IMG/VR virus record: IMGVR_UViG_3300047562_003195
Span: 1-22,377 of that record
DNA length: 22,377 nucleotides
Direction: 5' to 3' (one strand)
From: a virus
Below, piece after piece: positions 1,189 through 17,800 of this stretch (positions are counted from its first letter, which is position 1; the number at the start of each line of letters is the position of its first letter). Under the pieces are notes generated by a model that had not been told where the DNA came from, searched no databases, and saw only the letters and a program-made list of their open reading frames with translations. Made by a program: the position numbers and the translations under genes.

Positions 1189-4100
1189 ATGATATCAAAC
1201 GATCAAAAAAGAGTAAAAATTCAAGACGTAGTTGAAAATCAATTACCATCTTTTGTAAGAGAAGATTTTCCTCTCATTTCAGAATTTTTAAAGCAGTATT
1301 ATCTTTCCCAGGAGTATCAAGGTGCTCCATCCGATTTATTGGCAAATATAGATTTGTATTTGAACTTAGATATATTATCAGATAATGGCAATTCTACAAC
1401 TACTTTAACGAATGATATATCAACTTTTGATAGTACAATATTTGTTAATAGGGATTTGATTTATTCTTTCCCAGATAATTATGGACTGATTCAAATAGGC
1501 AATGAAATCATATTATATACATCTAAGGGAAATAATTCGCTGGATGGGTGTGTTAGAGGTTTTAGTGGCATAACTTCTTACACAAATAAGGGAGAACTAG
1601 TTTTCTCAGAATCTGAAGCTTCAGAGCACTCGTCAGGTTCTCAAGTTAAAAACTTAAGTGGACTATTTTTAAATAAATTCCTAACTAAGATTAAAAATCA
1701 AATTTCTCCTGGATTTGAAAATAGAGACTTATATAATAATACAAATACTGGAGAAAGAGTTAATCAGTCATTATTTCTCAAACATGTTAAAGATTTCTAC
1801 AATTCAAAAGGAACAGAAAACTCTTTTGAAATTCTTTTTAGGTCATTATATAACGAAGACGTTTCTGTCATTATTCCAAGTAAGAATCTTTTCAGACCTT
1901 CAGATGCTCAATATATTGTCACTAAGGATATTGTAGTAGAAAGCATTCAAGGAAATCCATTAGACCTTTTAAATAGAACTCTATATCAAGATAGTTACCA
2001 ATCTTATGGTATTGGCAATGCATATGGTTCAATTACATCAATAGAAAAAATATCCGTTGGTCAAAAAGATTATTATAGATTGAGTGTTGATTTTGATTAC
2101 TCAAAAGACATTATCTTAGAAGGAAGTGTATATGGAGATTTTTCTGTACATCCAAAAACAAGAGTCATAACTCAAGTTTCTTCTAATTCTTCTTCAATTG
2201 ATGTTGATAGTACAATAGGATTTCCAAATTCTGGGAATCTTGTAGTTCCATATGAAAATGGAACTACTGGAATAGTTACATATGCAAGTAAGACATATAA
2301 CCAATTCTTAGGTATTATTGGCATTAGCACTCTCAGTACTATAGAACCAGAGCAAGAAGTTAGAATTGATGCATTTGCATATGGATATTCTGGTGAAGAT
2401 ATTGTTACAATGAGAGTGGGTTCAGTTCTGTCAAGTTTAAATTTGGCAGAAGATACTTACTATTACAATGATAATGATAGTGCGAAAATTAAATCTTTAG
2501 GTATAGAAAAGTCATCACCAAAGACAGATTGTTGGTTATATAACATCCAATCAAAATTTGATTTGCAACAAGCCCCAACATTAATAGATCCAACTGACTT
2601 TACTTATAGAGTTTCTACACACATATCAAACAATTTTAGAATTGGTGATAATGTTGTAATCAGAACTAATCTTGCGGAGACTTATAACTCTGTTGTTATT
2701 GATATCTTAACAGAAACAACATTTACGTTAAGTGGTCAGGGAAACATTGCTACCGCAAATAGATTTTTTACTGTAGAAAGGAAATTAAAAAAACCAAACC
2801 TGAATGCATCTCTACTTTCAAAATATCAAAATATTTTGAAGTATACAACGGATGTGCAAAACACATATGCAAAGTTTAATGATGATGTTCTAGTTGCCTC
2901 ATCATCAATTCCATCTACTAATGAATTAAATTTTTATGATAGAATTCTTTTATTGACGGGTCCTTATGCAGAAGGTACACAAATATTCAATTTCCCAAAC
3001 CATGGATACTACACGGGCGATAAAGTTTTCTATGAAGCAAATCCAAATTCATTTCCCTTTATTAGTGGCCTCACTTCGAGTTCTTATATAGTACAAAGGT
3101 TAGATGAAAATAGATTTAGATTAGCTACCAGTCTTGCAAACATTTATGCTAGTTATAGAGATACTAATGAAGAAGATAGACAAAGTAGATTTATCTCAGT
3201 ATCCTCTGGATCTTCCAATGCAGAATATTTTGGTAGGTTAATTCCAGCAGAGTTTGTAGGAGATTCGTTAGAGCATCAGAATATTCTCAAGGAAATAAAA
3301 AATCCAGTAAACGATGGCGGAGTATATCCAACTGAGCCTGGCACAACTGGTATTTTGATAAATGGTGTTGAAGTTCTTAATTACAAATCAAATGATTACA
3401 TATACCACGGAAAAATAAATTCGATACAAGTTGCATCTGAGGGTCACGATTATGATGTAATTAATCCACCAATAATTAACATTTCAGATGAAGTTGGTTC
3501 TGGTGCTACTGCAAAATGTGCAGTCTCTGGATCTTTGCAGAGAATTGATATAATTGACACAGGATTTGATTATACAGAAATTCCTACTATCAGTATCAAT
3601 GGTGGAAATGGAACTGGAGCAACTGCGGAGATTAACACATCGTTAGTTACTCATTCTGTGAATTTTTATTCTGATATCGCATCATCTTACATAAGTACTT
3701 CTTCAAACACCATTGGATTTTCAACCTATCATAAATTTAGAAATTATGAAAGGGCAATTTATAAAACTGATGGCCAAATTGGGGTAACAGGATTAACCAC
3801 AGATTCTCATTATTATGTTGGGTTAGTTGATGCAGTTACTCTCAAGTTATTTGAAACAGAATCCGATGCAATTTCCGGAATTAACACTGTAGGATTGAGC
3901 TCCTTTGGGCAAGGAGTTCATAGACTAGTTGCATTTAATAAGAAAAGAATAGTTTCTGGAGTCACTGTAACTAATTCTGGAAATAACTATGAGAATAAAG
4001 AGAAAATTGCACTTCCCGTAGGAATTAATACAGCACTTGATACAATCAATATTCAAAACCACACATATAATTCCAGAGATATTGTAACATATGCAACAAC

Positions 4101-7100
4101 TGGAGTATCAATAACAGGACTATCCACAACTTCCACATATATTGTAACTAAAGTAGATGACGATAATTTCAAATTATCTCAAATTGGTCTAGGCGAAACT
4201 GCAAAATATTTCTATTATGATACAAATCAATATATAAATCTACAGTCTATCGGCAGTGGAGTTCATACTTTCAATTATGAGCCTATTTCTATCAGTATTA
4301 ATGGACCTATTGGAGTAACGACATTTTCTGGTTCAGGTCAAAATTTTGACGCTGTTATTCAACCAGTTTTTAGGGGTGTAGTTTCTTCTGTACAAGTTAC
4401 AGAAACTGGAGTTGGATATGGAGTAACTGATATTTTTAATTTGGATAGGCAACCGGTTATTACCCTCTCAAGTGGTTCTGGTGCTGCTCTTTTGCCAATT
4501 GTCAGTGATGGAGAAATAATAGAAGTTTTAGTAATTTCTCCGGGTTCTGGTTATAATTCTCCTCCGGATTTAAACATTGTTGGTCAAGGTAGAAATGCAA
4601 AATTAACCCCAGTTATAACGAATGGGCAGATAGAAAGAGTTGTAGTTAATCGTTCTGGAAGTGGTTATTCAAACTCAACTGGCGTTAATGTAGTATCTGC
4701 TGGTTCTGAAGCGAAGTTAACTGCAAATATTCAAAGTTGGAATGTAAATCTCTTCACTAAAAAGTATAATAATATTTTGAATGATGGGGATGATGGATTC
4801 CTATATCCATCAAACAAGTTTGGAATAAAGTATACTCACATGTATGCTCCAAGAAAGTTAAGAATGAGCATATATGGAAAAGATTTTAATAATAATATTA
4901 GGTATGGTAATTTTGATCTTACTTTAAATGAATCTGGAGAAGAAATTAATTCTCAGTATCATTCGCCTATTATTGGATGGGCATATGATGGAAACCCAAT
5001 ATATGGTCCGTTTGGATTTTCAAGACCAGATGGTGGAAATGTGAGATTAATGAAATCTGGATATACTTCAGCGTCTTCATTAACAGATCCAAATAGACCT
5101 CCATTCGAAGAAGAATTTTTTATTGAAGATTTTATCTTTACCAATGATGGAGATTTGGATGAGCACAACGGAAGATTTTGTATAACTCCAGAATTTCCTC
5201 AGGGAACATATGCATATTTTTCAACCGTTAATGTTGGCCCTATAGAGAACAGTGGTCCATTTTTTAATTACAAAAAGCCAATCTTTCCTTACATAATTGG
5301 AAATAGTTTCAAATCAAGACCAAATGAATTCAATTTCAACGTTAATAACAATCAAGTAGATTATGCTCTAAATGCGTCTGATTGGTTTAGAAACACAAAA
5401 CCCTATAATTTAAATGAATCAAAAGCATATTATAATTATTTGTTCCAACCAAATAAACTCAAAGAAAGTACAGTTAATTTGAGGGCATATAAAGGGTCTT
5501 TAGATTCAGTAAACATAGTGTCTGGTGGAAGCGGATATAAAGTAGGTGATACTATTGTATTCGAACCAGCAAATAGAGTTGCTCTTGCAAGAGTTGAAAA
5601 AATTTCGGGGAAGGATGTAAATTATGTAAGTGCAGCATCAACTACTTTCTACAATGTAGAAATAACTAGAAGCAATCCCGGCGAATACATTGCATTTACG
5701 GAAGTTCCCCACAGTTTTATTAATGGTGATATTGTTTACGTATCTGGTCTAAGTACGTCAACTAGAAATTTACAAAGAAATTTTGTTGTTGGTATCTCAT
5801 CAGAAACATATGAATTAACTTCCGATGTTGATAATGATACTGTTACTGGAATTGTCACTTATTTCAATATAAGAGGCAATTTAAATTACCCATCATTGAG
5901 AGTTGATGATATTCTCCAAATAGAGTCTGAAAAAGTAAAGGTATTATCAATCGACAATCTGAATTCCAGAATAAGAGTATTAAGAGCTCAAGATGGAACT
6001 TCTGGAGTGGCACACACATCAACAACTACATTAACTGAGTTAACCAAAAAACTGACATTTGCATCTATACCAGAAAATATAGCTTTTAATCAAAATAAAA
6101 AAATATATTTTAATCCAGAAGAAACTGTAGGAGTTGGAACAACTTCTGGTGTTGGTGTTGGTGTCACTCTTTCCTTTGCAAATCCAGGAGCAGGAGCAAC
6201 AGAAGTCTTTATACCGACAAGATCTCTTTATATACCAAATCATGGGTTAAATACCGGCGAGAGAGTTGTCTATTCCTTTAACCAGGGAAGTTCAATTGCA
6301 ATTTCAGCCACTGGAATTGGAAGCACGACTTTAGATAATGATTCATCTCTGTATGTTGCCAAAATCAATAACGACATTATTGGATTATCTACAGTTAAAG
6401 TTGGATTAGGTTCCACAGGTACTTTTGTTGGTATAGCAAGCACAACATCCAATTTAGGATTACTCTATTTTACTGGTATTGGTACAGGAGTCTATCATAG
6501 TTTAGAAACAACAAGAGAATCTGTTATATCAGAGGTCTCCAAAAATTTAGTCTCAGTTTCTCTTGCGGCAACTCATGGACTTTCTCTTGGAGATAGATTT
6601 GAATTATCTTTGAAACCAGTAACTACATTTACAGTCGTAGTAAAATACAATGATTATAATAGAAGAATAGTTTTCAATCCAAAATCATTTGTTTCTGGTG
6701 ATGTTGATACCATTAAAAATACAATCTATATTCAAGATCATAATTATGCTGATGGTGATAAGGTAATTCACTCTTCAACTTCTCCATGTGGAGGACTGGT
6801 AGATGAGAAGATTTACTATGTTATTAGATATAGTGTAGATAAAATTAGATTATCGGAGACCTATAATGGTTCTATACAAACAAATAAAGAATTTGTAGAT
6901 ATATCATCAAGTTCTTTTGGCACAATATCACCAATTAACCCCAAGATTACTGGGTATAAAAATTCTAAGATTAGATTTGATACATCAGATAGTTCTCTAT
7001 CTTACATCTCCGGAACAACTTATTCCGCATTTAAACTGAACTTCTATACCGATTCGAGTTTCACTACAGTATTTGAAAGTAGTAAGAGCACAGACACCTT

Positions 7101-10100
7101 CGAAGTTACTCGTTTTGGAAATATTGGATTTAATGGCTCTTATGTAGATTTGACAATTAGCGATTTTCTTCCTGAGGAATTATATTATAGATTCATTCCT
7201 GTAAATGGTGCTTCTTTGGTAAAATCTCAGATAGTTGTAGATGAAGAAGTATTCAACAATAATAAGATTGTTATCAAAAATAGTGAGTATCATGGAAATC
7301 ATGTAGTAGCAGGTATCGGTACAACAACATTCAATTTTAATTTAAATTATTATCCAGAAAAATCTTCATACAACACTCAAGAAGCATCTATTGAATATAA
7401 AACAACTTCTATAACAGATTCTGGTAGTATTGCTGAAATTAATATAATTGATTCTGGTTTTGGATATGACTACGTGCCTGGTGTTTCTACAATAAGAACT
7501 GCAAGTGGTAATTCTGCAATATTAGAATCGCAAAGCAGAAATATAGGATCAATTTCTTCATATGCTATAGAAAATATTGGATTTGACTACCCATCTGACA
7601 ATACTTTAAGACCAATATGCAATTTGCCAGAGATACTGAAAATAGAACCACTATCTTCATTTGAAGAAATTGGAATTACCTCCTCCGGAAGAAATTACTT
7701 AACTGCACCAAATTTGGTAGTAATTGATGGATTTACAAACAGAGTTATTAGAGATGTAGATTTAAGATATAGACTTGGTGACAACAGAGTGACTATTCTA
7801 ACTAATACATATGGAATTTATAATACTACACCGAGAATAATTCCAACAAATAATACAAATGGTGTTGGCATTAGCTCAATATTGTATAATTCATCAAGTC
7901 AAAATGTAACAGTATATTTAAATGCCGGATTCAGTGATTCTTTCCCATTCTCAGTTGGTGATAGAGTTTTAATTGAAAATGTCAGTGTTGGTGTTGCAAG
8001 CACTGGATATGGATATAACTCATCAAACTATGAATATACATTATTCACATTAACAGGTGTTCATCCAGGTTTGGGTGGAAACGTTGGAGTTGTAACATAT
8101 AGTTTATCTGACTATCTGCCAGTAGGAAGAACTCCGGGAAGTTATGATAGTGTAAATTCTTCTGGAAGAATAATTCCAGAAAAAGACTTCCCAATTTTTA
8201 GAACTACTTTAAGAAAAAATAATTTTATCATAGGAGAAACTGTAAAATCTTCTTCTAATCAAGGTGTTGTTGAAAGTTGGAATAATGATATTGATATACT
8301 AAAAGTTTCTACAGAAAAAGATTTTTCAATTGGAGAAGTTGTTGTTGGTCAAACATCAAGAACTCAAGGATTAGTATCCAGAAAGTATGATTTCAATGCA
8401 GATTTCTCTACATCATCTTCCTCAATCGTCAAAAAAGGGTGGGAATCTGATGCAGGTTTCCTTAATAGCAACACTGAAAGAATATCTGATAACTTCTATT
8501 ATCAAAAATTCTCATACTCATTAAAATCTAGAGTTCCTTTACAGGATTGGAATGATCCGGTAAGTTCACTTAATCATACTGCAGGATATTTAAAATTCTC
8601 AGATTTAAATATAGAATCTGAGAATACTTTATTGCCAATTTTTGGTGATAGGTACAATAATCTAGGTTCTACTGATGTTATAGTTGATCTCTATAGAGAA
8701 AGTGATTTGGATTGTTACTCTTCATATGATTATGCAACCGAAAATTCTTTAAATTTAAATTCTAGACAAGCATCTGATGAAATCTACTTCAGGAACTCTA
8801 TTCTAACGGATTACTTTGAATCAATAGGAAATAGAGTTCTTAGAATTGATGATGTTAGTGGAGAATTTAACAGCAATGAAAGAGTTACAAGATATTCTAT
8901 TGTTGATAGATTTTCTCTAGAATCAACATATAAAAAATATTTCATACTGGCACAGGATACAGTATTTTCTGACGAAAGGCAAATTTCTATAGTATCTCTT
9001 CTCCAAGATGGTTCACTCTCTTATATCAGTCAATATGGTAGAGTTGAAAGTCAATTAGATTTGGGATATTATGATTTTTCTATTTTTGGATCTGAAGGAA
9101 ATCTGAGATTCTACCCAACAAAATATCAGGCAAATAATTATAATGTAACGAATGTTTCTTTTGATATCAATGGTATTGCTGGTGTCGGAACAACTTCTCT
9201 CGGAGACGTTGTTAATGTAAGTACAGCAAATACATCTGTTTCTATTGGCACCACAACGACAATTGTTTCTATTGCTGACACCTATAGATCCTCTAAGGTT
9301 CTGGTTCAGGTAAAAACAACTGATGATCAATATCAAGTCAATGAGATTAATTTGCTCCACAATGGTTCTGAAGTATATGCCTTAGACTATGGCCAAATTA
9401 ATAGCACACCTGATTTAAATTTATCTGGACTTGGCACATACAATGCATATATTTCTGGAAATAATGTTATCTTAGACTTTATTCCATCTACTAGTGTTGC
9501 TTCTACAACATCTGCAATTATTGTTTCTATCGCAAGTACTCTATCCACTGGAATTGGTACAGAAACTTTATCTTTTGGGGCGAACAATCTATCTACACTA
9601 GAATCAAACTATGTTTCTATTTCATCATCACCAACACCAACAAATAATATAATTGCAGAATACTCAAACGAAAATTCTGGTGCATATTTAATCGTAAGTA
9701 TTGAAGATACAACCAATAATAATTATGAAATGTTGGAATTGATTGTAGTGAATGATTCCACAAACACATATTTAACCCAATATGGTGCTTTGGCTTCCAA
9801 CTCTGGAATAGGAACTTTTGGCTCATCTTTAGTTGGAAGTGACGTACAAATTTACTTTACTCCACTCCCAGATATTGATGTTCAAATAAGATCATTTGAA
9901 TTAGATTTGAGAATATCGGGAACCAATGGTTCATCCACTGAGCAAAGTATAATAGACCTAGAATCTGGTGAAATAAGATCAAATTATGGTTATTACTTTG
10001 GTACATTGACTGATGTTAAGAGACAATTTGAATTAACCCATAATAATAGAGAAATATTTGAGAGATTATTTGATGCATCTGACTCAGAAATTATCAGTAT

Positions 10101-10503
10101 TGCAGACGATACCATTACAATTCCTGAGCATTTCTTTGTAACTGGAGAGGAGGTTGTTTATGTTTGGCCTGGAGCAGGAACAACGGCATCAATTGGGATT
10201 GGAACAACAACTTTTGCAGGAATAGGTCAGACGGATAAACTACCTTCTTCTGTATTTGTTATAAAAGTAGATGATACAAAGATCAAACTTGCAAGAAGCG
10301 CGGAGGATGCTTTAAATGGTGTTCCAATTTCTGTTGATTTATTATCAGTTGGTGTAGGAACTGGTCACACAATAACTTCAATAAATCAAAATTCAAAGTG
10401 TATATTGGCAATTGATAATGTAATTCAATCTCCAATAGTTTCAACTGCAACAACAACGTTATTATCTTCGTATCTAGAAATTTCAAATTTTGTTCTAGAA
10501 TGA
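1189..10503 (+). CDS. Giant gp7-like baseplate wedge protein, N-terminal 3104 residues (frame broken at its 3' end)
   Basis: Starts at ATG 1189, 1 nt after gp6, with no clear Shine-Dalgarno. Residues ~10-60 (QLPSFVREDFPLISEFLKQY) and ~197-240 (FYNSKGTENS, LFRSLYNEDV, LFRPSD) resemble a block near the C-terminus of T4 gp7 (FYSTKGIEAS, LFKVLYNEEV, from memory). With its position between gp6 and gp8 this supports a gp7 role: the wedge initiator that binds gp10, gp8 and gp6. T4 gp7 is 1032 aa, so this protein is far larger. The rest is beta-rich: H-x-TGD modules (residues ~602-650, 955-1030, 1506-1548, 1682-1774, 1848-1914, 2978-3065), GxGY repeats (~743-820, 1063-1184), a YHYH-like domain (~1211-1346) and GDEI-type modules (~75-140, 337-400, 1572-1616). 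It has no signal peptide or membrane segment, and only about eight cysteines. It ends at TGA 10501-10503 inside a module that continues in the next frame, so the true product probably runs on to 13285. It could also be read as a generic virion structural protein; the gp7 call rests on the N-terminus and synteny. Confidence 0.75.
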   Translation: MISNDQKRVKIQDVVENQLPSFVREDFPLISEFLKQYYLSQEYQGAPSDLLANIDLYLNLDILSDNGNSTTTLTNDISTFDSTIFVNRDLIYSFPDNYGLIQIGNEIILYTSKGNNSLDGCVRGFSGITSYTNKGELVFSESEASEHSSGSQVKNLSGLFLNKFLTKIKNQISPGFENRDLYNNTNTGERVNQSLFLKHVKDFYNSKGTENSFEILFRSLYNEDVSVIIPSKNLFRPSDAQYIVTKDIVVESIQGNPLDLLNRTLYQDSYQSYGIGNAYGSITSIEKISVGQKDYYRLSVDFDYSKDIILEGSVYGDFSVHPKTRVITQVSSNSSSIDVDSTIGFPNSGNLVVPYENGTTGIVTYASKTYNQFLGIIGISTLSTIEPEQEVRIDAFAYGYSGEDIVTMRVGSVLSSLNLAEDTYYYNDNDSAKIKSLGIEKSSPKTDCWLYNIQSKFDLQQAPTLIDPTDFTYRVSTHISNNFRIGDNVVIRTNLAETYNSVVIDILTETTFTLSGQGNIATANRFFTVERKLKKPNLNASLLSKYQNILKYTTDVQNTYAKFNDDVLVASSSIPSTNELNFYDRILLLTGPYAEGTQIFNFPNHGYYTGDKVFYEANPNSFPFISGLTSSSYIVQRLDENRFRLATSLANIYASYRDTNEEDRQSRFISVSSGSSNAEYFGRLIPAEFVGDSLEHQNILKEIKNPVNDGGVYPTEPGTTGILINGVEVLNYKSNDYIYHGKINSIQVASEGHDYDVINPPIINISDEVGSGATAKCAVSGSLQRIDIIDTGFDYTEIPTISINGGNGTGATAEINTSLVTHSVNFYSDIASSYISTSSNTIGFSTYHKFRNYERAIYKTDGQIGVTGLTTDSHYYVGLVDAVTLKLFETESDAISGINTVGLSSFGQGVHRLVAFNKKRIVSGVTVTNSGNNYENKEKIALPVGINTALDTINIQNHTYNSRDIVTYATTGVSITGLSTTSTYIVTKVDDDNFKLSQIGLGETAKYFYYDTNQYINLQSIGSGVHTFNYEPISISINGPIGVTTFSGSGQNFDAVIQPVFRGVVSSVQVTETGVGYGVTDIFNLDRQPVITLSSGSGAALLPIVSDGEIIEVLVISPGSGYNSPPDLNIVGQGRNAKLTPVITNGQIERVVVNRSGSGYSNSTGVNVVSAGSEAKLTANIQSWNVNLFTKKYNNILNDGDDGFLYPSNKFGIKYTHMYAPRKLRMSIYGKDFNNNIRYGNFDLTLNESGEEINSQYHSPIIGWAYDGNPIYGPFGFSRPDGGNVRLMKSGYTSASSLTDPNRPPFEEEFFIEDFIFTNDGDLDEHNGRFCITPEFPQGTYAYFSTVNVGPIENSGPFFNYKKPIFPYIIGNSFKSRPNEFNFNVNNNQVDYALNASDWFRNTKPYNLNESKAYYNYLFQPNKLKESTVNLRAYKGSLDSVNIVSGGSGYKVGDTIVFEPANRVALARVEKISGKDVNYVSAASTTFYNVEITRSNPGEYIAFTEVPHSFINGDIVYVSGLSTSTRNLQRNFVVGISSETYELTSDVDNDTVTGIVTYFNIRGNLNYPSLRVDDILQIESEKVKVLSIDNLNSRIRVLRAQDGTSGVAHTSTTTLTELTKKLTFASIPENIAFNQNKKIYFNPEETVGVGTTSGVGVGVTLSFANPGAGATEVFIPTRSLYIPNHGLNTGERVVYSFNQGSSIAISATGIGSTTLDNDSSLYVAKINNDIIGLSTVKVGLGSTGTFVGIASTTSNLGLLYFTGIGTGVYHSLETTRESVISEVSKNLVSVSLAATHGLSLGDRFELSLKPVTTFTVVVKYNDYNRRIVFNPKSFVSGDVDTIKNTIYIQDHNYADGDKVIHSSTSPCGGLVDEKIYYVIRYSVDKIRLSETYNGSIQTNKEFVDISSSSFGTISPINPKITGYKNSKIRFDTSDSSLSYISGTTYSAFKLNFYTDSSFTTVFESSKSTDTFEVTRFGNIGFNGSYVDLTISDFLPEELYYRFIPVNGASLVKSQIVVDEEVFNNNKIVIKNSEYHGNHVVAGIGTTTFNFNLNYYPEKSSYNTQEASIEYKTTSITDSGSIAEINIIDSGFGYDYVPGVSTIRTASGNSAILESQSRNIGSISSYAIENIGFDYPSDNTLRPICNLPEILKIEPLSSFEEIGITSSGRNYLTAPNLVVIDGFTNRVIRDVDLRYRLGDNRVTILTNTYGIYNTTPRIIPTNNTNGVGISSILYNSSSQNVTVYLNAGFSDSFPFSVGDRVLIENVSVGVASTGYGYNSSNYEYTLFTLTGVHPGLGGNVGVVTYSLSDYLPVGRTPGSYDSVNSSGRIIPEKDFPIFRTTLRKNNFIIGETVKSSSNQGVVESWNNDIDILKVSTEKDFSIGEVVVGQTSRTQGLVSRKYDFNADFSTSSSSIVKKGWESDAGFLNSNTERISDNFYYQKFSYSLKSRVPLQDWNDPVSSLNHTAGYLKFSDLNIESENTLLPIFGDRYNNLGSTDVIVDLYRESDLDCYSSYDYATENSLNLNSRQASDEIYFRNSILTDYFESIGNRVLRIDDVSGEFNSNERVTRYSIVDRFSLESTYKKYFILAQDTVFSDERQISIVSLLQDGSLSYISQYGRVESQLDLGYYDFSIFGSEGNLRFYPTKYQANNYNVTNVSFDINGIAGVGTTSLGDVVNVSTANTSVSIGTTTTIVSIADTYRSSKVLVQVKTTDDQYQVNEINLLHNGSEVYALDYGQINSTPDLNLSGLGTYNAYISGNNVILDFIPSTSVASTTSAIIVSIASTLSTGIGTETLSFGANNLSTLESNYVSISSSPTPTNNIIAEYSNENSGAYLIVSIEDTTNNNYEMLELIVVNDSTNTYLTQYGALASNSGIGTFGSSLVGSDVQIYFTPLPDIDVQIRSFELDLRISGTNGSSTEQSIIDLESGEIRSNYGYYFGTLTDVKRQFELTHNNREIFERLFDASDSEIISIADDTITIPEHFFVTGEEVVYVWPGAGTTASIGIGTTTFAGIGQTDKLPSSVFVIKVDDTKIKLARSAEDALNGVPISVDLLSVGVGTGHTITSINQNSKCILAIDNVIQSPIVSTATTTLLSSYLEISNFVLE
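1411..1608 (+). repeat. GDEI-type beta module, copy 1 of 5
   Basis: Encodes residues ~75-140 of the giant protein: a STIFV strand, then GLIQIGNEIILYTS, then CVRGFSG and a final G-x-L-V strand. Related copies lie at 2197-2390 (IGFPNSGNLVVPYENG, YASKTYNQFLG), 5902-6036 (LRVDDILQIESEKVKV, VLRAQDGTSG), across the frame break at 10474-10668 (DLIKIDNEIMKI, VDRPWMGTG, HSSGSLI) and in the DUF4815 protein at 21103-21320 (YVLIGDEIIRYTS, IPIGSLVY-like PIGSLVYKYE). The pattern is G-x-[IL]-x-[IV]-x-x-E-I-x-x-[YI], then an arginine-containing turn, then [HN]-x-x-G-x-L-[VI]. Such modules are common in phage fibre and baseplate proteins. Boundaries are approximate. Confidence 0.6.
2992..3132 (+). repeat. H-x-TGD beta module, representative copy (family of about seven in the giant protein)
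   Basis: Pattern: I/F-x-N-H-x-x-x-T-G-D-x-V-x-Y, then about 10-25 residues, G-L-[ST]-x-x-x-x-Y-x-V, then D-x-x-x-[FI]-[KR]-L. This copy reads FPNHGYYTGDKVFYE, ISGLTSSSYIV, DENRFRLATS. Other copies are at about 4051-4272 (QNHTYNSRDIVTY), 5704-5832 (VPHSFINGDIVYV), 6232-6510 (IPNHGLNTGERVVY), 6730-6930 (IQDHNYADGDKVIH) and 10120-10383 (IPEHFFVTGEEVVY). A degenerate copy at 3727-3930 lacks the TGD. A shorter relative occurs in the DUF4815 protein at 21001-21060 (NHQNHGMYFDDNIT). The conserved His and Asp positions could be structural or bind an ion; that is speculation. Confidence 0.62.
4375..4740 (+). repeat. GxGY beta-repeat array in the giant gp7-like protein
   Basis: Three consecutive units encode residues ~1063-1184. 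Each has a short hydrophobic strand, then G-x-G-Y, then a P- or N-rich strand and a second strand starting A-x-L: VQVTETGVGYGVT, VLVISPGSGYNSPPDLNIV, VVVNRSGSGYSNSTGVNVV. Weaker units precede it at about 3415-3660 (IINISDEVGSGATAK, IDIIDTGFDYTEIPTISI) and follow it at about 5500-5610 (VNIVSGGSGYKVGDTIVF) and 7426-7730 (INIIDSGFGYDYVPG). The predicted architecture is repetitive beta-structure forming an elongated rod; this is inference from the periodicity. Confidence 0.65.
4819..5226 (+). other. YHYH-like domain inside the giant gp7-like protein
   Basis: Encodes about residues 1211-1346 of the giant protein. Signature elements in order are HSPIIGWAYDGNPIYGPFGF (from 4960), then DLDEHNGRFCITPEFPQG, then TYAYFST. 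These match the layout of the YHYH domain family (GWAYDGxPIYGPYGY, LDExNGR, then YHYH), but the family-naming tetrad is replaced here by YAYF. The family is found in secreted and phage structural proteins, and its molecular role is not established to my knowledge. It sits between a GxGY array and a further linker, so it looks like an inserted globular module on the virion surface. The domain call is fairly sure; the function is unknown. Confidence 0.72.
10497..10503 (+). other. Frame-change site: the giant gene passes from frame 1 to frame 2
   Basis: Upstream frame: CTA GAA TGA (10495-10503). Downstream frame: TAG (10496-10498), then AAT GAT ATT AAT TCT TTC TTT GGT. Only a shift between these two stops keeps both halves open. 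Skipping one base here (for example T10501) gives FVLE-DINSFFGNDLIKIDNE, which reads naturally for a virion-protein module. The downstream half has no credible own start: no Shine-Dalgarno, and the first in-frame ATG (10553) lies inside the conserved EIMKI motif. A TCTAGAA direct repeat (10473-10479 and 10494-10500, 21 nt apart) sits at the break. The cause could be a sequencing or assembly indel, a real mutation, or a +1 recoding event. GAA-to-AAU is a poor +1 slip and I see no prfB-like stimulator, so an indel is favoured. Confidence 0.8.
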
Positions 10504-10528
10504 TATTAATTCTTTCTTTGGTAATGAT

Positions 10529-13285
10529 TTGATTAAAATTGATAATGAAATTATGAAGATAAAAACTGTTGGATTTGGATCAACTAATAGAGTTTTGGTT
10601 GATAGACCTTGGATGGGTACAGGCATTTCAACACACTCAAGTGGATCCCTTATTACCAAAATTGAAGGTCAATATAACATAATTGATAACACGGTTCACT
10701 TTGTATCAGCACCATATGGAAATATACCAATAGGAAGTACAACAAATCCACCAGATGAAAGAGATTGGACTGGAATTACAACTAGTTCAAAATTCCAAGG
10801 AAGAGTATTTTTGAGAAGTGGTCAACCAAATACGTCTAGTGAGACCTACTCCAAAAATTATGTATTTGATGATATTTCAGAGCAATTTAATGCCATTACC
10901 AAAGATTTTATTCTAAAAGTTGACAATCAAAACATCACAGGCATATCTGATAATAATGCGGTCATACTAATTAATAGTATTTTCCAGAGTCCTTCTGCTT
11001 CCTTTGTTGTGAGGCAAGATTATGATTTACAAGAAACATCAGGAATTACAAGCATAAGATTTACAGGTGCGGCTTCTTCTGTTGCATATGACCCAAATAA
11101 TGCATCTATACCTGTTGGTGGTATAATAGTTTCAGTTGCTTCGACTGAAGGATTTGGTTATCAACCTCTTGTTGCCGCAGGTGGAACTGCCATAGTCTCG
11201 GTAGCGGGAACGATATCTTCAATTAGTATTGGTAACAGTGGTTCTGGTTATAGAGTCGGAATTCAAACTATAGTAAATGTTGGAGTATATACTTCTTCAA
11301 CAGGAACTCCAAATATTGAGTTTATTGGAACTGCAGCGGTTAGCAATGGAAACATTGTTAGTGTTGCTATTACAAATCCTGGAACGGGTTATACATCAAC
11401 AAATCCACCAAATGTTGTATTTGATAGTCCATTAAATTATTCAAACATACCATTGATTTATAGTTCATCTTCATCCGGAGTTGGAACAGAAGCAACAGTT
11501 GACGTTATTGTTGGTCAGGGTTCAAGTGTTATTGATTTTGAACTCAAATATACTGGATACAATTATCAAGTTGGTGACATACTAACTTTTGCTGCTGGAG
11601 GAACTTCAGGAATACCAACAGATACAACAAAACCATTTACAGAATTCCAGATTACTGTTGATACTACAGAAAGTGACAAATTCTCAGGATGGCATTTGGG
11701 TCAGCTAGAAGTTTTTGATAGTATTGAATCCCTATTTGATGGGCAGAGAAGAATCTTCCCTCTTTCCAAAGATGGAAGTCCAATATCAATTAGAGTTTCT
11801 CCTGGATCAAATATAGACATTCAATCCACACTATTAGTATTCTTAAATGATATTTTACAAGTGCCTGGCGAAGGATATACTTACAGAGGTGGTAGTGTTA
11901 TAAGTTTCCCTGAAGCTCCAAAGGGCCCATCTTTAGAATCGGGCGATCCAACATCTTCAGATAGATGTACGATATTGTTCTACAAGGGAAGTGGTGATAT
12001 TGATGTTATCTTTAGAGACGTTTTAGAAACTGTTAAAGTTGGCGACACTCTGACAATTAACGATGATAATTTTGTGTGCTCAAATATGATTCAGCAAGAT
12101 GAAAGAATTGTTACAGAAATTTTATCATCAGACAGTGTTGAGACAAATACTTATTTTGGTCCAGGAATAAATGGAAACCCAGATTGTTATAGAACTGTTG
12201 ACTGGTGTAAGCAAAAGAATGACTTAGTTATTGATGGAAGTATTGTAAGTAAGAGTAGAACATATTATGAACCTATAATTAATCCGGTTTCTTACTTAAT
12301 TCAACCTGTTGGGGTAGGATCTACTATAGTGTACGTTGATAGTATAAGACCATTCTTCAATCAGAATAATGAAAATAGCACTTTACAAAATAGCGTTACT
12401 TTCATTCCACAAGAACAAATTGTTGGAGCATCTGCAACCTCATTAGTGTCTGTAGCCGGAACAGTTTCTTCTATTAGCATAACAAATGGTGGAAGTGGTT
12501 ATACTTCAGTTCCAAATGTATCAATTCAAGTTGGTTTTGGTACTACTCAACCAGCAACAGCAGTGGCATCAGTCACTGCAGGCATAGTTACCACTATTTC
12601 AGTAACAGGTCCTGGAACCGGATATACTTCAACGAATCCACCAGTTGTTCTAATAGAACCCCCATCAATTTCAGTTGAAACCAATTCTGTTTCTCAATAT
12701 TTTGGTGACTATGGTAAGGTTGTGGGATTTGGATTTACCACTTCTTCTGGAATTTCTACAATTACTTTCGACCTTTGGATTGAGGAAGATTCATTTGTAA
12801 GAGATTCTGCATTGGTTGGAACAGCAGTTACTATTAGTGGAATTTCTACGGGCGACTATATTTTAATTAATGATTCTAATATCGGATTGGCAAATACATC
12901 CATAACTTCACTAAGAATTGATTCTTCTTCGATTGGAATTGGTTCTCAGTTTATAAGTAATGTATATCAAGTTATTACATCAACAGAAATTCAGAAATAT
13001 ATTATTGGCATTGGCACTACTTATGTCAATAGAATTGAGGTAAAGGTTAGTGGTATGGGAACTGATACATTGGATTCTTTTGATTCTTCGACAAGAGATT
13101 ATATTTACTCTGGTGGAATAACCACAGCAACTCATTTTGGTTCTTATAGTTGGGGAAAAATACATTTAAATTCTAGAACTGGGTTGGGTTCTTTTGGTTT
13201 CTATGGAGATGGTGGCGTTGGTGGAATAGTTACTTCTACTCTTGTAAGAAGAACAAATTCATTAAAATATACAGGTTATCTCTAA
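10529..13285 (+). CDS. C-terminal part (918 residues) of the giant gp7-like baseplate protein, separated by a frame break
   Basis: The frame is open from 10499. A caller would start at TTG 10529 or ATG 10553, but neither has a ribosome binding site, and coding sense begins at the break (D-I-N-S-F-F-G-N-D from 10502). I read it as the continuation of 1189-10503, giving about 4,031 residues if one base is skipped. Visible order, in residues from TTG: rest of a GDEI module with RPWMGTGISTHSSGSL (~1-50), a fibre-like N-x-x-x-Q-x-P module (~144-163), a GxGY pair (~219-301), a second N-x-x-x-Q-x-P module (LNDILQVPGEGY, ~435-464), a module with three cysteines (VCSN, DCYRT, DWCKQ, ~517-563) followed by a conserved-looking YEPIINPVSYLI segment, a second GxGY pair nearly identical to the first (~635-712), and a beta-rich tail ending KYTGYL at TAA 13283-13285. 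All are structural-type motifs; I see no catalytic site. As an independent protein it is unlikely. Confidence 0.6.
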   Translation: MIKIDNEIMKIKTVGFGSTNRVLVDRPWMGTGISTHSSGSLITKIEGQYNIIDNTVHFVSAPYGNIPIGSTTNPPDERDWTGITTSSKFQGRVFLRSGQPNTSSETYSKNYVFDDISEQFNAITKDFILKVDNQNITGISDNNAVILINSIFQSPSASFVVRQDYDLQETSGITSIRFTGAASSVAYDPNNASIPVGGIIVSVASTEGFGYQPLVAAGGTAIVSVAGTISSISIGNSGSGYRVGIQTIVNVGVYTSSTGTPNIEFIGTAAVSNGNIVSVAITNPGTGYTSTNPPNVVFDSPLNYSNIPLIYSSSSSGVGTEATVDVIVGQGSSVIDFELKYTGYNYQVGDILTFAAGGTSGIPTDTTKPFTEFQITVDTTESDKFSGWHLGQLEVFDSIESLFDGQRRIFPLSKDGSPISIRVSPGSNIDIQSTLLVFLNDILQVPGEGYTYRGGSVISFPEAPKGPSLESGDPTSSDRCTILFYKGSGDIDVIFRDVLETVKVGDTLTINDDNFVCSNMIQQDERIVTEILSSDSVETNTYFGPGINGNPDCYRTVDWCKQKNDLVIDGSIVSKSRTYYEPIINPVSYLIQPVGVGSTIVYVDSIRPFFNQNNENSTLQNSVTFIPQEQIVGASATSLVSVAGTVSSISITNGGSGYTSVPNVSIQVGFGTTQPATAVASVTAGIVTTISVTGPGTGYTSTNPPVVLIEPPSISVETNSVSQYFGDYGKVVGFGFTTSSGISTITFDLWIEEDSFVRDSALVGTAVTISGISTGDYILINDSNIGLANTSITSLRIDSSSIGIGSQFISNVYQVITSTEIQKYIIGIGTTYVNRIEVKVSGMGTDTLDSFDSSTRDYIYSGGITTATHFGSYSWGKIHLNSRTGLGSFGFYGDGGVGGIVTSTLVRRTNSLKYTGYL
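11183..11431 (+). repeat. GxGY repeat pair, first of two near-duplicate copies
   Basis: Encodes SVAGTISSISI, then NSGSGYRVG, then NPGTGYTSTNPPNVVF. A second copy with the same order lies at 12431-12664. The 11-residue stretch PGTGYTSTNPP is identical in both, and SVAGT[IV]SSISI differs at one position. Codon wobble differences between the copies (for example ccaggaacgggt versus cctggaaccgga-type changes) show the duplication is not brand new or has been under purifying selection. Confidence 0.7.
12431..12664 (+). repeat. GxGY repeat pair, second near-duplicate copy
   Basis: Encodes SVAGTVSSISI, then NGGSGYTSVPNVSI, then GPGTGYTSTNPPVVLI. It is the partner of the copy at 11183-11431, about 1.25 kb upstream in the same frame. 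The DNA between the copies encodes the fibre-like and three-cysteine modules, so the copies could recombine and delete or duplicate that segment. Confidence 0.7.
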
Positions 13286-13317: not shown

Positions 13318-14877
13318 ATGTCTGCAATTATAACTGACCAACTTCGTATATTAAATGCAAAGAATTTTGTTGCTGGGGTATCTACAGCAAATAATTCTTA
13401 TTATACTTTCGTCGGTTTACCAAATCCTAATGATCTTTTATCTACTTGGGATACAACCCCATTAGATCCCCGTGATAGTTTTAATGATGAAAATAATTAT
13501 TGGGATACTATGATTGCATTGAAGAAAATTAGATCGACTGATGTTAAGCAGGTTGTTAGAAAAATACAATGGAGACTCGGCGATACTTTTGATATGTATC
13601 GCCACGATATTACTGCAGACAATCCCACTAACTCATCAAATAGTCTATCGTTATATGAATCAAATTTCTATGTATTAAATTCAGATTATAGAGTTTACAT
13701 CTGCTTACAAAATGGAACAGATCCTGATAACCCAAATGGTAGAACTTCTTTAGATGAACCAACATTTACTGATTTAGAACCAAAAGCCGCAGGATCGAGT
13801 GGAGATGGTTATATTTGGAAATATCTTTATACAATAAAACCAAGTGATGTAGTTAAATTTGATTCAACCAATTTCATGCCAGTTCCATCAAACTGGGAAA
13901 CTAATTCAGAAAATTCTTCGATAAGAAATAATGCCTCCACTAGTGGCCAAATAAAAGTAGTTTTAGTAAAGAATAGAGGAGAATCTGTTGGGCCTGCTAA
14001 TAGAGTTTATACAAGGGTTCCTATAAAAGGTGACGGTAATGGGGCAGAAGCGACAGTTGTTGTAAATGGTAGTTCCAGGATTGAATCGGTTACAGTATCA
14101 AATGGTGGATCTGGATATACATATGGAACTCTAGATTTGGTAGGTGGTGGGGTTCCCACTGGAACAACTTCACCCGAGTTTGAAGTTATTATTCCACCTC
14201 AGGGAGGTCATGGTTATGACATTTACAGAGAACTTGGTGCAAGAAATGTTCTAATCTACTCTAGAATAGAAAACGATGAAGAAAATCCAGATTTTATTAC
14301 AGGAAATCAATTTGCAAGATTTGGAATAATAGAAAATCCAAAAGCATATAACTCTACAGAAAATTTGGCTTTAGATAAAGCAAGTGCAGTTTATGCTTTG
14401 AAACTTACTGGTGCTGGTTATAGTTCAGCATCTTTCCCAGAAGATAGTTTTATAACACAAACAGTCGGTCTTGGTTCAACGGCTGTTGGTAGAGTTATTT
14501 CGTACAACCAAACAACTGGTGTGTTGAAGTACTGGCAAGATAGAACAACTTCAGGATTTAATACAAGTGGTACTGCAAATACATCACCAATCTATGGATT
14601 CTCTGCAAATAGATTTACTTCCTCACCAGATACTTTGAATGGTGGTTCTATCAATATTGTTGGAGTTGCAGCTACATTATCAATACATACATCTTTTACA
14701 GGAGTATCAACTGAGGTACTAAATAGAACATACTATCTTGGTCAATCATTTACGCAGGGTGTTTCTCAACCAGAAGTTAAAAAGTATTCTGGAAATATTA
14801 TTTACGTAGATAATAGACCTTCAATATTGAGATCAACCAACCAAAAAGAAGACATTAAAGTCATATTGCAGTTCTAA
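13318..14877 (+). CDS. 8: Baseplate wedge protein gp8
   Basis: A 519-residue protein starting at ATG 13318, 32 nt after the giant gene. Similarity to T4 gp8 (334 aa) can be seen by eye, with the T4 sequence recalled from memory: N-terminal NSYYTFVGLP, DSFNDENNYWDTMIALKKI and VVRKIQWRLGDTFD; central DGYIWKYLYTIKPSD (T4 DGYVWEYLFEIPPD); and C-terminal IIYVDNRPSILRSTNQKEDI ending in VILQF (T4 MIYMENRPPII, with TEEI and LFTF at the end). In T4, gp8 is a dimer that binds gp7 and gp10 within the wedge. The extra length comes mainly from residues ~242-280, a GxGY repeat unit (VTVSNGGSGYTYGTLDLV), and from ~365-470, a Gly/Ser/Thr-rich stretch. A late promoter precedes it. TAA at 14875-14877 is 6 nt before the next start. 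This is the best supported gene in the window. Confidence 0.93.
   Translation: MSAIITDQLRILNAKNFVAGVSTANNSYYTFVGLPNPNDLLSTWDTTPLDPRDSFNDENNYWDTMIALKKIRSTDVKQVVRKIQWRLGDTFDMYRHDITADNPTNSSNSLSLYESNFYVLNSDYRVYICLQNGTDPDNPNGRTSLDEPTFTDLEPKAAGSSGDGYIWKYLYTIKPSDVVKFDSTNFMPVPSNWETNSENSSIRNNASTSGQIKVVLVKNRGESVGPANRVYTRVPIKGDGNGAEATVVVNGSSRIESVTVSNGGSGYTYGTLDLVGGGVPTGTTSPEFEVIIPPQGGHGYDIYRELGARNVLIYSRIENDEENPDFITGNQFARFGIIENPKAYNSTENLALDKASAVYALKLTGAGYSSASFPEDSFITQTVGLGSTAVGRVISYNQTTGVLKYWQDRTTSGFNTSGTANTSPIYGFSANRFTSSPDTLNGGSINIVGVAATLSIHTSFTGVSTEVLNRTYYLGQSFTQGVSQPEVKKYSGNIIYVDNRPSILRSTNQKEDIKVILQF
14041..14154 (+). repeat. GxGY repeat unit inserted in gp8
   Basis: Encodes gp8 residues ~242-279, including AEATVVVNG, RIESVTVSNGGSGYTYGTL and DLVGGG. 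It is closely similar to units of the giant protein (VSSISITNGGSGYTSVPNVS at about 12454). T4 gp8 has no such segment as far as I recall, so it is likely a surface-loop insertion shared with the neighbouring wedge protein. Confidence 0.62.
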
Positions 14878-14883
14878 AGAATT

Positions 14884-17800
14884 ATGTCACAGGAAACTAA
14901 TCTCAACGTATCACCCTATTTTGATGATTTTGATGCAAATAATGACTATTATAAAGTACTATTTAAACCAGGTTATCCAGTTCAAGCTAGAGAACTGACA
15001 ACATTACAGTCAGTTCTACAAAATCAAATTGAAAAGACTGGACAAAGATTATTTAAAGAAGGCGATAAGGTAATTCCTGGAAATATTTCATATAACCGCC
15101 TATATTATGCCGTAGAAATTAACAACACATATTCTGGAGTTGCAGTTGCAGAGTATCTGTCTCAATTGGTTGGAGTCAAAATTACAGGTCAAACTTCTGG
15201 AGTTACTGCTGTTGTAAAAGAAGTAATTACCCAGGAAGAGTCTGATAGAGATAATGCAACACTTTATGTTAGTTACTTGTCGTCAAATTCTGCAGACTTA
15301 CAATCTCATTTCTTTCTAGACAATGAATTACTAATTACTGAACAGAATTTAACATCACAATCAACGACAATAACATCTGGCGACTTTTTTGCTTCAACAG
15401 TTGCAAATAATGCAACTTCGACCGGATCCTCATTTTCAATCTCAAGTGGAGTTTATTTTGTAAGGGGATATTTTGTAAATGTACCCGAAGAGTCCATCAT
15501 TCTAGACCAGTATTCAAATACACCAAGTTATAGGGTTGGTTTGCTTGTCTCGGAAGAGGTTGTAAACTCATATACAGATCCAACTCTTAACGATAATTCA
15601 AATGGGTTTAATAACTACGCAGCACCTGGGGCAGATAGACTAAGGATTAGTGTTTCTCTCTATAAGAAAGCTTTAAATGATTTTGATGATAATAACTTTA
15701 TTGAACTAGCCACGATTACAAATGGAGTTATTAGAACCAAAAATAAGAGTTCAGAATCTTTCGAGTTAGAAGAATCTTTAGCAAAAAGAACTTACTCAGA
15801 GACTGGTGACTATTACATAAGTCCAATAGATGTAAGTGTAAAAGAATCTCTATCGGATAATATTGGGAATAGAGGTATATACAATTCAACCCAAGTTACT
15901 CAATCTGGTTCTTCTCCAGCAGATAATTTGGCTTTATACCAAATATCTCCAGGAAAAGCTTTTGTTAAAGGTTATGAAGTAGAAACTACCAAAACAGTAT
16001 TTTTAGACGCTCCAAAACCAAGAACTACTAAAACATTATCAAATCAATCAATAAACTATTATACAGGACCAACATTTAGGATTAATAGAGTTAGTGGAAA
16101 TCCGGTGATTGGAATTGGAAATACTTATATTTTAAGTTTAAGAGATACTAGAGTTGGATCAGATTCTTTTTCTGCTGCTGGAAAGGAAATTGGAGTTGCT
16201 AGAGTTTATGACTTTAGACTAGATTCTGAAGCATATGATGCATCAAATACAAACTTAAATGATTGGAATTTATCTCTTTATGATATTCAAACTACAACTG
16301 AAATAACATTAAATGAACCAGTAACATTATCAACTCCGTCTTTTATAAAAGGAAAATATAGTGGTGCTACTGCTTTTCTAAAAGATTCAGTCTCTTCTGG
16401 CGCAGGAATTACAGTTTATCAGAAGTCTGGTCAGTTTTTGGAAAATGAACCATTCATAATTAATGGAATTGAAAATGGAAGAATAGCAATAGCTATTACT
16501 TCATATGACATTTCAGATATAAAGTCTGCATATGGTATTGTCGGTGCTGCAAATACATTTACAGCAGATATAATCCAAACAGAAAAGTCTTTTATTGGCG
16601 TTGCGACAATTAGTGCGGCTAGCGGTGGTATATCTACAGTTACAAGTACAAATTCAAGATTTATAAATCAAGTAAAAGTAGGAAATATTTTACAATATAG
16701 CAGCCAGTCACTTAATTTACCAACTTTTGTTAAAGTTGTTAGTATTTCTTCAACAACAGTTGGTGTAAGTTCAGTTCAAAGTGTTCCGGGAGTATGTTCT
16801 GGCGATTTGCCAGTATCAACATTAAATGTCTCAGATTTGAGACTATTAACAACCAATTTATCTTCATCTGAAGATGACACTTTATATACACCACTACCGA
16901 AGAAGAATATTTCTTCAATAAATTTACAGAACTCCACTGTAACTATTAGAAAAACATATTCATTTACAATTTCTGGAAATTCTTCTGGAACTTTGTATTC
17001 CGGTACAAATGAAACTTTCTTACCCTTTAGTGAAAAGAGATATTCTCTAATTAGGGTGGATGGAACAACAGAAGTTTTAACATCAGATCGCCTCAACTTT
17101 AATTCAGATTTTACTCAACTTCAAATTAACAACTTGAGCCAGAATGGTGATGCAGTATTAGTAGCAACTTTATCAAAAGCAAATCCAACATCAAAAGTAA
17201 AATTAAAGAATAGAGTCAATAGTGTCATAGTAGATAAGTCAAAATATCAAGGATCTGGTATTGGTTCAACCACACTCAATGATGGACTTCAATATGGAAA
17301 TTATCCATATGGAACAAGAGTTCAAGATGAAGTAATCTCATTGAATGTTCCGGATATTATAGAAGTGCATGGAATATATGAATTTGCAGGTTCTTCAAAT
17401 TTAAATAGTGATCCATCAGCACCAAATATCTTACTTTCTTCTATTAACAGTCTAACAAATACAACCTCAGATATAATCTTAGGCGAAAAGTTTATTGGTA
17501 GAACAAGTGGAGCTGCTGCAATATGCGCAGAAATTCCCGATTCTACAAATATCAAATTTGTTATGAAAAATCAAAATAATTTTGTAGAGGGCGAAGTAAT
17601 TTTCTTCGAAGAATCTAACGTAACTGCAACAATTTCAGAAATAAGTTCAACAAGTTTTGATGTTTCTTATAATTTTGAATATAAGAATGGTCAAAAGTCA
17701 AACTTATATGATTATGGAACTATTATAAGAAAATTAAATGTTGCAGAACCAAATAGAAAATTAAAAGTCTATTTCTCAAATGGTTATTATGAGTCTGGAG

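Follow-up and report, generated by a model that had tools for sequence, protein, structure and literature searches.

The sea harbours large numbers of cyanophages and pelagiphages. In bacteriophage T4, the outer baseplate is composed of several proteins, namely the gp7 arm, gp10, gp11 and gp12. According to the available text of PMC6300606, one chain of the gp7 type combines with a pair of gp6-type chains both in T4 and in the type VI secretion system (T6SS), giving rise to a bundle of three helices and a triangular trifurcation unit; the relation of TssG and P2 gpI to the gp7-type wedge proteins is taken from the same text. In XM1 and A-1(L), the helices of the core bundle make up the N-terminus of the wedge protein, as described in the available parts of PMC10457771 and PMC10966104. 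In these descriptions, the XM1 tail spikes are held by a loop and by the C-terminal tail of the gp7-type chain (PMC10457771), and A-1(L) gp32, which is a chain of the gp7 type, is in contact with the long tail fibre (PMC10966104). For marine phages, according to the available text of PMC7029224 (2020), cyano- and pelagimyophages lack gp7 and have VrlC as its substitute; in that of PMC3037559, gp7 is counted as one of the non-cyanophage core genes.

We analysed a viral fragment of 22,377 bases, the whole of which is called the window. The window encodes a giant protein, the nearest named relative of which is gp7 of the Synechococcus phage S-SM2 (GU071095; 54% identity over residues 6-325). S-SM2 gp7 is annotated as 'gp7, baseplate wedge initiator', consists of 4,156 aa and is encoded between gp6 and gp8. 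The giant protein is very probably the wedge protein gp7 of a marine phage related to T4; its gp7 core is split into two halves, and its inserts probably form the outer baseplate and make host contact.

Gene organization and the frame break

All genes of the window described here are located on the plus strand. The 3' part of the gene for the baseplate wedge subunit gp6 (positions 3-1187), the 5' end of which lies beyond the window edge, matches Pfam Gp6_C-I (3.3e-6), Gp6_C-III (6.8e-6) and phrog_219 (2.5e-104). It is followed by an ORF of 3,104 aa (1189-10503), residues 6-3097 of which match PHROG 2885 (phrog_2885, baseplate wedge subunit) with an E of 0, and by an ORF of 918 aa (10529-13285), which matches positions 3545-4176 of the same family (E 4.1e-225). 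The gene for the baseplate wedge subunit gp8 (13318-14877, 519 aa) matches Pfam Phage-Gp8 (5.3e-13) and phrog_438 (4.6e-161). The order proposed in the preliminary description, with gp6 before and gp8 after the giant protein, is borne out by these Pfam and PHROG matches, and S-SM2 has the same order. The last ORF (14884-22341, 2,485 aa; Pfam DUF4815, 1.5e-52) encodes a VrlC-type structural protein, not gp7, at a position corresponding to that of the annotated VrlC gene of S-SM2. In Syn33 and P-RSM4 (loci L076 and L148), the gene next after gp7 (6,376 and 6,603 aa) is gp9, with gp8 several kilobases farther on, so that gp7 and gp8 are no longer adjacent in these phages.

The first ORF of the giant protein corresponds to residues 3-3136 of S-SM2 gp7 and the second to residues from 3159 onward (3159-4152). 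The frame of the giant gp7 is broken at about 10468-10528, because both ORFs match consecutive parts of one S-SM2 protein. The window therefore carries one gp7 gene with a frame break, which is either a sequencing error or real. It is unlikely that the break at about 10.5 kb is a true gene boundary and that the giant protein is cleaved or produced as two products, the parts of which act separately. The window does contain two ORFs, and a frame break places both gp7 halves in different ORFs at four further loci (L037, L064, L151 and L220). However, the protein is encoded by a single ORF in S-SM2 (4,156 aa), Syn33 and P-RSM4, and 34 of the 63 window-type ORFs with the core remain in one frame beyond the position of the break (at least 3,200 aa). 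In addition, the break in the window is located downstream of the second half, so that the core is not divided by it.

First half of the gp7 core

The preliminary description aligned FYNSKGTENS and LFRSLYNEDV of the giant protein, placed within its first 240 residues, with FYSTKGIEAS and LFKVLYNEEV in the last third of T4 gp7. Both quoted strings and their placement are correct. FYNSKGTENS and LFRSLYNEDV are located at residues 203-212 (1795-1824) and 216-225 (1834-1863) respectively, such that the motif spans residues 203-225 (1795-1863), and FYSTKGIEAS...LFKVLYNEEV starts at residue 734 of T4 gp7 (1,032 aa, NC_000866). When residues 1-300 are compared with 177,635 distinct PDB sequences by phmmer, two T4-type gp7 proteins lead the ranking (E 4.4e-6 and 6.1e-5), and the next rows (0.54 and 0.56) are unrelated proteins. 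The match to T4 gp7 is thus above chance. A T4-type gp7 HMM matches the first ORF at residues 178-255 (i-E 1.4e-10). The profile-profile comparison with T4 gp7 that had been proposed as a check aligns residues 193-300 with T4 724-813 (hhalign, probability 95.9, E 5.5e-9).

The core profile A4 was made from 16 compact relatives, with T4-type and window-type sequences excluded. Among the 177,635 PDB sequences, T4-type gp7 alone is significantly matched by this profile (8.9e-9, at T4 646-760, and 2.1e-7; next 0.15). The profile finds the first ORF twice, at residues 9-60 (i-E 2.2e-9) and 179-252 (i-E 5e-21), with a small insert between them. The first core piece contains the N-terminal helices (residues 9-60, 1213-1368) and corresponds to T4 gp7 from about residue 645. 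The second core piece (residues about 161-325, 1669-2163, with an estimated boundary) contains the motif and corresponds to about T4 700-840. Insert 1, a small beta domain inside the core (residues about 61-160, 1369-1668), falls in a gap of the core profile.

When whole genomes are searched with the core profile, exactly one ORF is found in each of 14 phages, of which IME-SM1, X1, ACP17, Cr30 and phiM7 match by construction and nine are independent. A second copy of the core, which would speak against the proposed identity, is thus absent from these whole-genome relatives. In S-SM2, Syn33 and P-RSM4, an insertion of about 100 to 600 residues interrupts the core near profile position 60, and in HTVC008M, Mosig and Melnitz the interruption is near position 42. 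A third arrangement is seen in ORM_20 and phiM9 (L142 and L145), in which about 250 residues precede the gp7 core; the core is located at residues 270-403 in ORM_20 and the motif at residue 349 in phiM9. The first ORF of the giant protein gives no match to Pfam PF23786 (Baseplate_wedge) at an E of 1 and is not filed under this family, which does match the homologues from IME-SM1, HTVC008M and Cr30.

Second half of the gp7 core and the inserts

A block, YQ-FSY...HPAG, near the C-termini of the compact relatives recurs at residues 2422-2484 of the giant protein (8452-8640), which correspond to T4 862-897. A second-half profile made without any cyanophage giant matches residues 2422-2479 with an i-E of 4e-19. 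Since the gp7 core resumes with its second half at this position, the bulk of the giant protein is probably an internal insertion. This insertion (insert 2, residues about 326-2421, 2164-8451) consists of about 2,100 residues and parts both core halves. The very long C-terminal extension envisaged in the preliminary description therefore does not account for the bulk of the protein, but it does exist for the region that follows the core, with about 620 residues in the first ORF (residues 2485-3104, 8641-10500, as judged from the comparison with S-SM2 gp7) plus the 918-aa second ORF. Residues about 465-477 were indicated by hhalign as a candidate for the second-half motif, but this candidate is rejected, because the second-half profile is blank there and finds residues 2422-2479 instead.

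The second-half profile A2 consists of 14 blocks, with T4-type members excluded. When the 177,635 PDB sequences are searched with it, T4-type gp7 proteins rank first and second (E 0.024 and 0.053, within residues 863-892; next 0.59). These E-values are modest, yet the profile appears to find the expected protein at the expected place. In the genome search with A2, S-SM2, Syn33, P-RSM4, HTVC008M, IME-SM1, X1, ACP17 and Cr30 match by construction, and the others are independent. A compact relative is aligned by hhalign at residues 5-217 with T4 645-840 (probability 97.7, E 1.7e-12) and at residues 403-438 with T4 862-897 (probability 19.5, E 0.0012), in the same order as in T4. For 22 compact L069-type proteins compared with T4-type gp7, the E is 0.0017 for the core and 0.17 for the second half. 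The alignment of the second half to T4 is improved (E 0.0012) by the broader alignment A3, which comprises 75 of 93 listed sequences, with L100 and the HTVC008M type left out. Alignment A1 comprises 52 of the 64 window-type loci, three compact relatives and the window, and L110 and L113 were left out of the T4-type alignment. By sequence alone, the link between the second half and T4 is weak.

Co-occurrence of both halves was scanned in 1,267 ORFs from 259 loci (including relatives on viral contigs found by scans with single proteins; L001, L077 and L182 were left out). Both halves are present together in 195 ORFs. The first half alone is present in 56 ORFs, 50 of which run off the contig; of the six closed ones, four are complemented by a different ORF of their locus that carries the second half, and two are on contigs that end early. 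The second half alone is present in six ORFs, which are the four partners of the frame-broken first halves and two that are cut at the 5' end. The second half is present in one copy per ORF, always downstream of the first half. All 29 T4-type ORFs contain both halves, with values of 1.4e-11 to 7.3e-8 for the first and 2.3e-4 to 0.027 for the second; the best values of the reversed-sequence controls are 0.043 and 0.25, the latter for the second-half comparison. Thus, the homology, the order and the co-occurrence of both halves are observed.

The gap between the core halves is about 20 residues in T4, about 185 residues in IME-SM1 and about 2,100 residues in the window. When the distance is expressed as the number of residues between the ends of the two HMM matches, it is 100-105 for the T4 type (29 ORFs), 233-243 for the IME-SM1 type, 315-629 for the set found with the Cr30 query (67 ORFs), 487-525 for the HTVC008M type in IMG/VR (19 ORFs) and 729-978 for the L069 type (25 ORFs). 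It is 2,168-2,301 in all 37 giant proteins of the window type with both halves in one ORF, 2,708 in Syn33 and 2,700 in P-RSM4.

Insert 2 contains a YHYH domain (PF14240, residues 1184-1349, 4738-5235; Pfam E 6.4e-21). No significant match is found when a stretch of this insert (4372-4782 of the window) is compared with the PDB by phmmer. Pattern searches for a repeat unit in the giant protein, in one form, find none. A glycine-rich unit HMM finds six copies in the first ORF and five in the second, and the possibility that the insert is a repeat array is rejected, because these copies are too few.

Structure models

The AF2 model of residues 1-480 of the window protein, made with 55 relatives, is poor (pLDDT 53.2); the core is under 50 over long stretches, and residues about 70-130 are among the best-scored parts. 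The 503-aa gp7 of IME-SM1 (IMG/VR locus L136) was folded by AF2 with 74 relatives. The mean pLDDT of this model is 74.7, with mostly 70-90 at residues 61-140 and 400-440, lower values at residues 1-60 and less than 50 at residues 441-503. The top VIA matches to the IME-SM1 gp7 model are T4-type gp7 proteins (Z 9.3 and 9.0), in which residues 56-438 of the model correspond to residues 698-897 of the chain, and Foldseek places gp7 in ranks one to three. A Z of 9 is a little above the 7 to 8 that the tool reaches when a model has no clear match. The rmsd of the T4 rows is high (15.8), probably because the domains are placed differently. VIA also matches residues 55-447 of the model to residues 57-191 of a baseplate chain of phi812 (190 aa; Z 8.7, rmsd 3.1, 120 residues), such that one continuous stretch of the phi812 chain is built from both halves in the IME-SM1 gp7 model. 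Matches over model residues 90-436 are obtained with diffocin (Z 5.0) and a Streptomyces injection system (Z 4.7), and no TssG or P2 gpI chain is present among the best 50 VIA matches listed. These results suggest that both halves form one folded domain, as judged from the model of the compact relative and not from that of the window protein itself.

Residues 259-335 of IME-SM1 gp7, which belong to its insert, resemble a part of the T4 tail sheath, namely domain I of gp18 (VIA Z 8.2, rmsd 2.6, 74 residues, 23% identity). The same insert matches Pfam Gp18_dom_I at 3.4e-5, just below the cut-off, with a phmmer E of 0.005-0.01. One module may be common to sheath and wedge proteins.

According to a different explanation, the gp7 core is complete in the first 300 residues, the rest of the giant protein is a C-terminal extension, and the YQ-FSY-HPAG element near residue 2440 is an unrelated common motif. 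The similarity of this element to T4 is indeed weak when taken alone (E 0.024; hhalign probability 19.5). However, no ORF that is long enough lacks the element, since the exceptions to the 195 ORFs with both halves are cut contigs or frame breaks, and the element is single in each ORF and always follows the first half. Moreover, T4-type gp7 is the top PDB match of the second-half profile, at the expected place, and both halves of the compact relative's model superpose on one continuous 190-aa chain. This explanation is therefore quite improbable, and a gp7 core in two halves is preferred.

T4 arm, gp10 and gene labels

The core of the giant protein starts at residue 9, and no Straboviridae-type N-terminal arm (T4 1-640) precedes it. 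The giant protein is thus a gp7-type wedge protein but not a Straboviridae-type gp7, and the earlier proposal that the wedge core is kept at the N-terminus while the T4 arm is missing agrees with this result. The arm is found in only two of 14 whole genomes, those of T4 and Vibrio phage V07, when T4 gp7 1-640 is used as a single-protein query, which remote copies could escape. Full-length gp10 has the same distribution (2 of 14, T4 and V07). Four other genomes give a short N-terminal gp10 match of up to about 130 residues, which in Syn33 and P-RSM4 falls on the gene annotated as gp9. The arm and full-length gp10 are absent from the other whole-genome relatives searched. The preliminary description also proposed that the T4 arm was replaced in marine phages, but the direction is probably the reverse. 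The arm looks like an addition in the T4 lineage, because the compact relatives and, as described in the available parts of PMC10457771 and PMC10966104, XM1 and A-1(L) begin with the core helices. On this view, the T4 lineage would be characterized by the arm and gp10, and loops of the core would have grown in the marine lineage instead.

The identity of the giant protein as gp7 is not new, because S-SM2 gp7 is publicly labelled, a PHROG family exists, and a gp7 row comparing DLP6 with cyanophages and others, at very low identities, is present in the available text of PMC5349666. In the open-access literature, we found no description of a split gp7 core; the two-part core and the insertion distances are the part not found described there. 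The remark that cyanophage gp7 is often left unannotated does not apply to S-SM2, but it does to Syn33 and P-RSM4 ('structural protein'), IME-SM1 ('hypothetical') and HTVC008M ('head closure Hc2'). At the HTVC008M locus (L073; 13416-16466, 24126-26006 and 26654 onward), two genes other than that of the gp7 homologue are labelled 'baseplate wedge initiator'. PHROG 3465 carries the same 'head closure' label.

The published view that cyano- and pelagimyophages have VrlC in place of gp7 (available text of PMC7029224), with which the gene list in PMC3037559 and the lack of any match to the first 640 residues of T4 gp7 in these genomes agree, is hardly tenable, because the core profile finds one ORF, directly after gp6, in each of S-SM2, Syn33, P-RSM4, HTVC008M, Mosig and Melnitz and never matches the VrlC gene in these six genomes. 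The presence of a gp7 core in marine phages, as detected by this profile, thus contradicts the statement of absence in the available text of PMC7029224. The two-piece core explains how gp7 could be overlooked by whole-protein alignment.

Proposed architecture of the giant gp7

About 250 residues, the counterpart of T4 gp7 645-897, would form the core that builds the wedge. Its N-terminal helices would assemble with two gp6 chains into the core bundle, and the alpha/beta domain that follows them would represent the gp7 corner of the trifurcation unit. The coding region of this domain would be divided, with residues about 161-325 on one side and residues 2422-2484 on the other side of about 2,100 mostly beta-rich residues; the second, small insert (residues about 61-160) would lie between the helices and the alpha/beta domain, and about 1,500 residues would follow the core. 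The inserts most likely loop out of the folded core and form the outer baseplate, a role that is filled in T4 by the gp7 arm with gp10 and partners. They may carry host-contact modules, for which the YHYH domain is one candidate. The simplest reading is that the core performs the role of gp7 and the inserts make the baseplate periphery. The gp6 contacts, the location of the inserts in the virion and the host contact are inferred, and the inserts probably function in the baseplate periphery and in host contact.

It is conceivable, and is proposed here tentatively, that the outer baseplate of marine T4-related phages consists largely of one polypeptide, which arose by growth within a loop of the trifurcation domain of gp7. 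Such a chain, of 4,000 to 6,600 residues and present once in each wedge, would act as the nucleus of the wedge and also present the surface for host contact. The wedge domain appears to tolerate insertions of widely differing size at a few fixed points, and insertion at fixed points is a testable model of baseplate diversification. The results also provide a rule for finding gp7, namely the N-terminal helices, the KGT motif, and YQ-FSY-HPAG about 100 to 2,700 residues farther on, by which the disparate labels in use ('head closure Hc2', 'virion structural protein' and 'hypothetical') are corrected.

Comparison with known gp7-type proteins

XM1 gp17, A-1(L) gp32 and T6SS TssG resemble the giant protein in that each is the third chain of a (gp6)2-gp7-type heterotrimer with N-terminal helices in the core bundle, but they are small and without giant inserts; they are likened here by the descriptions in the available parts of PMC10457771, PMC10966104 and PMC6300606. 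T4 gp7 (1,032 aa) shares with the giant protein the core (645-840 and 862-897) and a gene located between gp6 and gp8. In contrast to the giant protein, it has a 640-residue arm before the core, about 20 residues between the halves and no giant insert. The compact gp7 proteins of IME-SM1, ACP17 and X1 (482-503 aa) have an N-terminal core with both halves, and no T4 arm is found in them, as in the giant protein, but the HMM ends are separated by about 233 residues, as compared with about 2,170 residues in the giant protein. S-SM2 gp7 is the most similar, with the same gene order, 44-56% identity to both window ORFs and two core halves with about 2,200 residues between them; it differs from the window protein in that its ORF is undivided and its GenBank label is already gp7.
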